Part shown: in pieces, positions 48,370 through 62,832 of the stretch
Numbering within the stretch: position 1 is the first letter of the stretch
Layout of the letters: each line of letters opens with the position of its first letter
Translations under genes and position numbers: made by a program
Notes under the pieces: model-generated
Told to the model about the DNA's origin: nothing
What the model saw: the letters and a program-made list of their open reading frames with translations, nothing else
Database searches by the model: none
Assembly (NCBI GenBank): GCA_913061095.1
Contig: CAJXVM010000008.1
Coordinates: 62,001 to 126,000 of the forward strand
Source: an uncultured Ignavibacteria bacterium
GTDB lineage: Bacteria; Bacteroidota; Ignavibacteria; SZUA-365
Direction of reading: 5' to 3'
DNA: 64,000 nucleotides

Positions 48370-48453
48370 ATGTCACCAGGTAGTGACATCTTTGAGACTC
48401 TATGTCACCGGGTGGTGACATCCTGACGGCCGCATGTCACCGGGTGGTGACAT
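48370..48453. repeat. Three 20-bp palindromes at a 32-bp period
   Basis: Copies at 48370-48389, 48402-48421 and 48434-48453. The last two read ATGTCACCGGGTGGTGACAT; the first differs at two central positions. All keep the 7-bp arms ATGTCAC/GTGACAT. The start-to-start distance is 32 bases in both cases, about three helical turns. They lie between fumC and the secreted-protein gene at 48600 and could be a cooperative operator array or a REP-like cluster. Confidence 0.85.
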
Positions 48454-59304: not shown

Positions 59305-59329
59305 CCGCGATGCTGCTGCAGATCCCCGC

Positions 59330-59491
59330 GTTCGCCGCAGGCGGACGCCATCCCGGACGCATGTCCGGGACATAGCCCCGACGTCAGTCGGGGACCGGGA
59401 ACGCGACGTCATCCGTGGAACAGACGAGTCCGCCGCAGGCGGACGCCATCCCGGACGCATGTCCGGGACATAGCCCCGACGTCAGTCGGGG
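59330..59491 (+). repeat. Left array: two copies of a 64-bp triple-hairpin unit
   Basis: Copies at 59330-59393 and 59428-59491, offset 98 bases. Each has hairpin A (GTCCGCC/GGCGGAC, 3-base loop; one mismatch in the first copy), hairpin B (CCCGGAC/GTCCGGG, 4-base loop) and hairpin C (CCCCGAC/GTCGGGG, 4-base loop). Short linkers GCCAT and ACATAG join them. No CDS lies in this 162-base stretch. Confidence 0.9.
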
Positions 59492-59543
59492 ACAAGGACG
59501 GGGGTGATGCGTATGCATTATCGCAATCAAGTGATGTGATCGA

Positions 59544-60002
59544 TCAATCCCGGTCATTAAAAAACACATCAATAGCAGTGTGTCCCAATCCATACCGCTC
59601 GAGCAGCTTCCGGAACTCCTCTTTTGGTGACTGATTTTTGTGATGCTCTTCCTGATGTGCAATATATCCACGCACCGCATCGATATGTGTCGGACTCACG
59701 CTGAACGCACCATATCCGGCCTGCCACTGAAATCGTATGCGAGTAACCTGGTTCTTGTTCATCAGGCGCGATGAATTTGATTTCAGTTTCTGTGTAGCCT
59801 CGGATATTGAGAGAGCCGGAGGAATGTCCAGCAGAAGGTGAATATGATCGGGGATGCCGCCGATCGCATAAAGGTGAATCCCCAGATTCTTACACACACC
59901 ACGGACATATCCCGTAAGAGCACACATCGGTTGTTTCGTTAGCAAGTCCTGCGAATGCAGTGTACGAAATACCATGTGAGTGTGAAGCTGCACGTATGAC
60001 AT
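59544..60002 (-). CDS. IS200/IS605-like Y1 transposase, REP-associated (RAYT) type
   Basis: A 152-aa single-domain HUH endonuclease of the IS200-like (tnpA) fold. The HUH motif is GGIPDHIHLLL with His53 and His55; the likely nucleophile is Tyr113 in VRGYIAHQEEHH. Other family marks: YVQLHTHMVFRT at the N-terminus, FQWQAGYGAFSVS and EEFRKLLERYGL. It lacks a partner tnpB. The start at 60002 has AGGGAGAAT upstream. The gene appears intact and lies between two inverted repeat arrays, the usual setting of RAYTs that move or maintain REP elements. Confidence 0.9.
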   Translation of the reverse strand: MSYVQLHTHMVFRTLHSQDLLTKQPMCALTGYVRGVCKNLGIHLYAIGGIPDHIHLLLDIPPALSISEATQKLKSNSSRLMNKNQVTRIRFQWQAGYGAFSVSPTHIDAVRGYIAHQEEHHKNQSPKEEFRKLLERYGLGHTAIDVFFNDRD

Positions 60003-60095
60003 GTTATTCTCCCTATGGTTGAACATGGTTGCTGCTGAATCTTCGCTTTTTGAACGATATTTTCAATACACATTTCCGTCATTGAATCAAGACGC

Positions 60096-60428
60096 CCCCC
60101 GGAATGCCGTCCGCCTGCGGCGGACTCAGCGAACCTTGGTGCCAACCCGCATCGCCACATTCCCCCGACTCACGTCGGGGCTACGTTCCGGGCTCACGCC
60201 CGGAATGCCGTCCGCCTGCGGCGGACTCAGCGAACCTTGGTGCCAACCCGCATCGCCCCATCCCCCCGACTCATGTCGGGGCTACGTTCCGGGCTCACGC
60301 CCGGAATGCCGTCCGCCTGCAGCGGACTCAGCGAACCTTGGTGCCAACCCGCATCGCCCCATCCCCCCGACTCACGTCGGGGCTACGTTCCGGGCTCACG
60401 CCCGGAATGCCATCCGCCTGCGGCGGAC
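60096..60428 (+). repeat. Right array: 101-bp tandem unit carrying the triple hairpin
   Basis: The GGAATGCC word recurs at 60101, 60202, 60303 and 60404: exactly 101 bases each time. Three complete C-B-A hairpin sets are present (C 60163-60180, 60264-60281, 60365-60382; B 60186-60205, 60287-60306, 60388-60407; A following), plus a leading partial B-A. Between sets is a 36-base spacer containing a small TTGG-TG-CCAA hairpin. It fills most of the 438-base gap 60003-60440. Confidence 0.92.
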
Positions 60429-60440
60429 TCGATTCAGGGA

Positions 60441-62615: not shown

Positions 62616-62832
62616 CCCTGCGCTTTGCGCTTTGCACTCTGCGCTTTGCACTCTGCGCTTTGCACTCTGCGCTTTGCGCTTTGCGCTTTGCGCTTTGCAC
62701 TTTGCGCTTTGCACTCTGCGCTTTGCACTCTGCGCTTTGCGCTTTGCGCTTTGCACTCTGCGCTTTGCACTCTGCGCTTTGCACTCTGCGCTTTGCACTC
62801 TGCGCTTTGCACTCTGCGCTTTGCACTTTGAG
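62616..62832. repeat. 31-unit heptamer microsatellite-like array
   Basis: 217 bases made of exactly 31 consecutive 7-mers, with no slip of register. Nearly all units are CTTTGCG, CTTTGCA or CTCTGCG; CTCTGCG follows only CTTTGCA. The first unit (CCCTGCG) and last (CTTTGAG) are degenerate edges. Because 7 is not a multiple of 3, all frames stay open on both strands, creating spurious reading frames. It lies about 100 bases upstream of the TonB-type receptor gene. Confidence 0.92.

Follow-up and report, generated by a model that had tools for sequence, protein, structure and literature searches.

Mirrored arrays of tagged hairpins around a TnpA_Y1 subclass 1.2 gene of an uncultured Ignavibacteria bacterium: a probable REPtron-like locus

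The stretch of DNA analyzed here (64,000 nucleotides from an uncultured Ignavibacteria bacterium, contig CAJXVM010000008.1, positions 62,001 to 126,000; hereafter, the window) contains a gene for a Y1/HUH transposase that is placed between two units of three hairpins (A-B-C) on the left and three full units plus a truncated one, all inverted, on the right. The features are as follows, with coordinates counted within the window.

59328-59395, plus strand: left unit 1, with hairpins A (59330-59346, imperfect), B (59351-59370), and C (59376-59393), and an ATAG foot at 59372-59375
59426-59493, plus strand: left unit 2, with hairpins A (59428-59444), B (59449-59468), and C (59474-59491), and an ATAG foot at 59470-59473
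59544-60002, minus strand: Y1/HUH transposase gene with the TnpA_Y1 subclass 1.2 signature (152 aa with Met9 as the start); the open reading frame (ORF) opens at 60026
59664-59666, minus strand: codon of the catalytic Tyr (Y121) of Y---Q--HH, invariant in the homologue alignment
59838-59846, minus strand: codons of the HUH motif (H61-I62-H63) from the translation, with H61 and H63 invariant in the homologue alignment
60098-60127, minus strand: truncated fourth right unit, nearest to the gene, in which 60098-60125 comprises hairpin A (60109-60125) and a portion of one B arm
60161-60229, minus strand: right unit 1, with hairpins C (60163-60180), B (60186-60205), and A (60210-60226), and a GTAG foot (CTAC on the plus strand) at 60181-60184
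60262-60330, minus strand: right unit 2, with hairpins C (60264-60281), B (60287-60306), and A (60311-60327, one mismatch), and a GTAG foot at 60282-60285
60363-60431, minus strand: right unit 3, with hairpins C (60365-60382), B (60388-60407), and A (60413-60427), and a GTAG foot at 60383-60386

The transposase ORF extends over 59544-60026 on the minus strand, and Met9 is the likely start of the protein, with AGGGAG located upstream and residues 1-9 disordered in the AlphaFold model (pLDDT 85). The original prediction of a Y1 gene with an HUH motif and a candidate Tyr was borne out: the ORF is intact over 59544-60002, the HUH motif reads DHIH (H61 and H63), and Y121 is invariant among 21 homologues. 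The protein matches Pfam Y1_Tnp (E 2.8e-23), passes the NCBIfam model transpos_IS200 (75 bits; cut-off, 55 bits), and fails the RAYT model REP_Tyr_transpos (28.2 bits; cut-off, 80 bits). The closest folds in the PDB are those of TnpA from IS608 and ISDra2, followed by 4er8 (E 3.8e-6), an E. coli RAYT with a REP hairpin. In addition to DHIH, the protein carries WQ (W101-Q102) and YIAHQEEHH (Y121-Q125-H128-H129). Subclass 1.2 of TnpA_Y1 has been described by Quentin et al. 2018 (PMC6006769) as having DH[IV]H, WQ, and Y---Q--HH in about 148 aa, as occurring at low copy number and with low identity between copies in Bacteroidota and others, and as related to IS200, with neither insertion-sequence features nor REPs; in open-licence papers, no later report of REPs for this subclass was found. 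The host genome has two such genes, the window gene and a paralogue (G000:C16), which are 51% identical. The window gene agrees with the published description in its motifs, length (~150 aa), low copy number, and low inter-copy identity, and differs from it in having flanking hairpins. Judged from its sequence, the protein is thus a TnpA_Y1 of subclass 1.2 and not a classical RAYT.

The two units of the left array are spaced by 98 bp, and the three full units of the right array, inverted relative to the left array, by 101 bp (3.3 copies over 60098-60430 in TRF; score, 631). The hairpin trios of the two arrays are ~80-85% alike, while their spacers differ. Hairpin A is GTCCGCC-3-GGCGGAC, and hairpins B and C have stems of 8 and 7 bp, respectively, each with a 4-nt loop; the 5' foot of hairpin C is GTAG in the right array (3/3) and ATAG in the left array. 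Single-strand folding gave exactly three stems per unit (z = -5.2 to -6.7), and none of 200 shuffles was as stable. Hairpin B shows two-sided compensatory changes between copies and between arrays (2 pairs, 5 cells); covariation over the whole trio is weak evidence, with six sequences and with hairpin A misregistered against the copy on C16. A search of the region against Rfam gave no match at E values up to 1. Coordinates and folding therefore confirm the two A-B-C units on the left and the three complete C-B-A units on the right that had been predicted. Two finer points of that prediction hold in part: hairpin C faces the gene in all full units, but not in the truncated right unit, which has A and part of a B arm, and stems of a fixed 7-8 bp are seen in B and C, but not in every copy of A, whose stem is imperfect or shorter in left unit 1 and right units 2 and 3. 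Elsewhere in the window, a 14-bp minisatellite with ~15 repeats of TGCGCTTTGCACTC, in which several frames are open, occupies 62626-62827.

The dispersal of the window family was examined by pattern and model searches of the host genome. Apart from the five copies in the arrays, hairpin C occurs once, in a three-hairpin unit with GTAG that lies between two divergent ORFs (G000:C16:99343-99410); the copies predicted elsewhere in the genome come down to this one, with hairpin C otherwise absent, and the many dispersed intergenic copies that characterize a REP family were not found for it. Scores of >78 bits for the window unit were confined to its own genome. A covariance model of the trio detected no convincing copies in relatives, the weak matches there (E 0.002-0.08) being other hairpin arrays with nothing in common but GC stems and GTGA-type loops. 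In relatives without the gene, hairpin A is about as common; the anticipated restriction of the repeat to gene-bearing genomes thus fails for this hairpin, which is generic in the family and was rejected as a gene-specific marker. The left-hand neighbor gene of the window locus has an orthologue in eight family genomes, and no array or repeat was found beside that orthologue. Based on the small size of the family, its single dispersed copy, and the lack of an array in these eight relatives, the window locus is young or only weakly active, even nearly silent, and the family has grown mostly in place as tandem units of 98/101 bp. Hairpins A and B could serve as accessory sites or be carried along as passengers.

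Because a single locus cannot show whether the association of gene and hairpins is real, we collected 111 subclass-1.2 loci, of which 31 (the window locus included) come from whole genomes within the same class and 80 are named loci of many phyla; two of the 111 are the same locus. Within 250 bp of the 111 genes, the density of hairpins (stem of at least 7) is 3.0 per kb on the 5' side and 3.9 per kb on the 3' side, five to six times the background on both sides (~0.6 per kb beyond 750 bp). An identical perfect hairpin is present on both flanks within 700 bp in 28 of the 64 non-redundant loci left after removal of close homologues, as compared with 3 of 433 control positions; an earlier count gave 31/89 loci against 0/52, 0/46, 0/44, and 0/43 in controls. 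TAG is found directly at the foot of 64 of 323 near hairpins and 16 of 329 far hairpins, counts that are not all independent. On the 5' side, the two orientations of the nearest tagged hairpin are split 16:2, and on the 3' side 4:14 (p = 1.3e-4); the orientation is mirrored in 10 of 13 two-sided loci, giving the same tag geometry as in the window, where the tags point outward. Orientation judged by flank similarity alone is ambiguous for palindromes and was replaced by this tag-based test. In a genome with five subclass-1.2 genes (G024), four of the genes (L205, L207, L208, and L209) differ from one another in their hairpin. At the strict criterion, over half of the loci have no shared flanking hairpin, and many Bacteroidota loci are without a TAG foot. 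By these counts, subclass-1.2 genes are often flanked by hairpins of their own, contrary to the published absence of REPs.

The paralogue in the host genome is flanked by CCACAC(C/G)C-GTNA-G(G/C)GTGTGG hairpins. Its hairpin, CCACACCC-N4-GGGTGTGG, has 163 copies in the host genome (0 with the reversed-pattern control) and 0-5 loose matches in 11 other family genomes. The consensus is GCG-N-TA(A/G) (TAR)-stem-GTNA-stem, with conservation stopping at the last stem base. While 83% of the DNA is coding according to a simple codon-usage gene prediction, 65 of 72 copies are located outside predicted genes, and copies often alternate in strand at a spacing of 41-50 nt in a BIME-like manner. Many dispersed, mostly intergenic copies, as expected of a REP family, are thus present for the paralogue hairpin. 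The hairpin flanking the gene of G005 likewise has 28 copies in its own genome and 0-1 in other family genomes, and that of the G008 gene has 35 and 0-2, respectively.

The number of hairpins per unit varies among relatives, from single tagged hairpins (L086, L207, and L208) through pairs and threes (L038) to fours (L028/L117). The three-hairpin unit is real, but is one composite form among several and does not define a class. At L028/L117 (G041, contig named Melioribacter roseus), a long array of four-hairpin units with a period of ~365 bp is located on both sides of the subclass-1.2 gene, and further copies lie several kb from it. Hairpins were also observed in other settings. In contig C1 of the host genome (L014:2117-2236; G000:C1:226116-226235), a decayed second tRNA-Met lies ~400 bp downstream of an intact copy and has GC-rich hairpins, two of them of type A (TCCGCC-3-GGCGGA), in place of the D-loop and the variable/T region; it may be the trace left by hairpins that inserted into a tRNA gene. 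In contig C5 (L003:1435-1962 and 2077-2718; G000:C5), a Y1 gene of class 2 (DHLH, YIYENP) stands beside a Y1-like ORF (HVHV, YIRRDP) and is flanked on either side by inverted repeats built around GGATT..AATCCGTC, so that the locus looks like a terminal-inverted-repeat-associated (TIRYT-like) one.

Altogether, we consider it quite probable that the window contains a REPtron-like locus of TnpA_Y1 subclass 1.2, in which the flanking TAG-tagged hairpins are the cognate substrates of the transposase. At the sequence level, the case consists of an intact catalytic protein, mirrored hairpins tagged outward, recurrence of the arrangement, with other hairpins, around many relatives from several phyla, and genome-restricted dispersed hairpin families of three other genes of this taxonomic family. 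These data suggest that an enzyme group reported to lack known DNA targets maintains short mobile hairpins of its own, and the assignment of the hairpins as REP-like elements that belong with transposases of this kind is supported by the relatives, not by the window alone. The original proposal of a new REP-like class maintained by the transposase is accordingly supported for the REP-like tie and not for the three-hairpin unit as its mark, since units in relatives have one to four hairpins.

An alternative to which we give little weight is that the hairpins are host elements, such as terminators, mRNA-protecting or -processing structures, or nucleoid sites, and that the transposase was inserted among pre-existing repeats. 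In its favor, hairpin A is generic, and arrays do exist far from such genes: at 48370-48453 of the window, just after a 470-aa ORF and with no transposase adjoining, there are three intergenic copies of the hairpin ATGTCACC-4-GGTGACAT at a spacing of 32 bp. Tandem arrays with GTGA/GTAA loops, with no subclass-1.2 gene detected nearby, are found at L166 (G004:C363) and L053 (G000:C26:22169-22249). Two genomes of the same genus (G002 and G004; 87-92% complete) yielded no subclass-1.2 gene, yet have other hairpin arrays, which may be relics, signs of missed genes, or host elements. This reading is opposed, however, by hairpins shared by the two flanks at 28/64 loci against 3/433 control positions, by enrichment on the 5' side as well, by mirrored tags, and by the gene-linked restriction to single genomes in three replicates.

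An ordinary IS200/IS605 insertion sequence, with its left- and right-end hairpins duplicated by chance, is less probable still. The transpos_IS200 score and the nearest solved folds (IS608 and ISDra2 TnpA) agree with it, whereas the genome has only one other such gene, at 51% identity, in place of multiple near-identical copies, and the protein has WQ and Y---Q--HH, not the W[TS] and Y[IV]ENQ motifs of subclass 1.1. The end hairpins of IS200/IS605 are on the same strand; those in the window form unit arrays on both sides of the gene that mirror each other. Furthermore, no tnpB adjoins the gene in the ORF list of the window, and the paralogue has 163 gene-free hairpin copies. The alternative offered originally, an IS200-like insertion that has decayed amid older intergenic repeats, is very unlikely, in spite of the local arrays and the truncated right unit beside the gene, because the ORF is complete with all invariant residues and a high-confidence fold, the hairpins mirror the gene, the arrangement recurs at distant paralogues, and the eight family genomes with the neighboring gene have no repeats beside it.

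For the REPtron-like locus, a mechanism can be proposed by analogy with RAYTs and IS608, in the latter of which the foot tetranucleotide guides the cut. TnpA would bind the tagged hairpin where the DNA is single-stranded, such as in the lagging-strand template of a replication fork; the foot tetranucleotide (GTAG or ATAG preceding hairpin C) would guide the cut; Tyr121 would cleave and rejoin the DNA; and the hairpin units would be copied or transferred to intergenic sites elsewhere, by which the hairpins would be spread or amplified. The WQ pair, which is common to several REP-associated subclasses and absent from IS200, which has W[TS] (table in PMC6006769), fits a role in foot recognition. 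On a broader scale, we regard it as somewhat better than an even chance that the subclass-1.2 clade, on the IS200 side and ranging over Bacteroidota, Planctomycetota, Verrucomicrobiota, Acidobacteriota, and others, forms REPtron-like systems of its own, with a separate and often TAG-tagged hairpin family for each gene. An IS200-type transposase would then have been domesticated a second time, in parallel, to maintain REPs, and composite units of several hairpins, such as the trio in the window, would be one outcome. As subclass 1.2 was published without insertion-sequence features and REPs, its substrates and the reason for its retention had been open, and the cognate tagged hairpins now are candidate substrates. 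The link would extend REP biology to many phyla, recognition rules and co-divergence become testable in genomes with several gene-hairpin pairs, and a comparison case is provided for IS200-type transposases turning REP-maintaining, if this happened more than once.

Among known systems, the CGTC-tagged palindromic repeats are short tagged palindromes that have been reported from Chlorobi and Bacteroidetes among others (Di Nocera 2013, PMC3733652), from which the window hairpins differ in having GTAG/ATAG as the foot, CGTC in left hairpin C spanning stem and loop. With IS200/IS605 (subclass 1.1: IS608 and ISDra2), the window locus shares the fold and, in the proposed mechanism, the HUH/Tyr chemistry and the guidance by a hairpin and its 5' foot; unlike these elements, it is not a multi-copy insertion sequence, its arrays are mirrored, and hairpins are dispersed without the gene. 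REPtrons consist of a TnpA_REP/RAYT (class 2) and GTAG-tagged REPs, as in E. coli, Stenotrophomonas, and Marinomonas (PMC8266576, PMC6006769, PMC3733652), and in E. coli, TnpA_REP recognizes GTAG and the hairpin when it binds single-stranded REP, which it cuts at CT (PMC8266576). The window protein departs from class 2 in having Y---Q--HH (YIAHQEEHH) in place of Y---NP, and the system departs from REPtrons in its looser tag (TAG/TAR) and in the tandem three-hairpin units of the window with almost no dispersed copies. With regard to the REPtron foot, GT[AG]G, the picture is mixed, with GTAG in the right array (3/3), ATAG in the left array, and an enrichment for TAG in relatives. Inverted flanking hairpins, a REPtron trait, are present in the window. 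The two systems have in common a low-copy Y1/HUH transposase of the single-strand type, a GTAG-like 5' foot, hairpins in opposite orientations, a hairpin of its own for each gene, and, in the case of the paralogue, dispersed intergenic and BIME-like copies.
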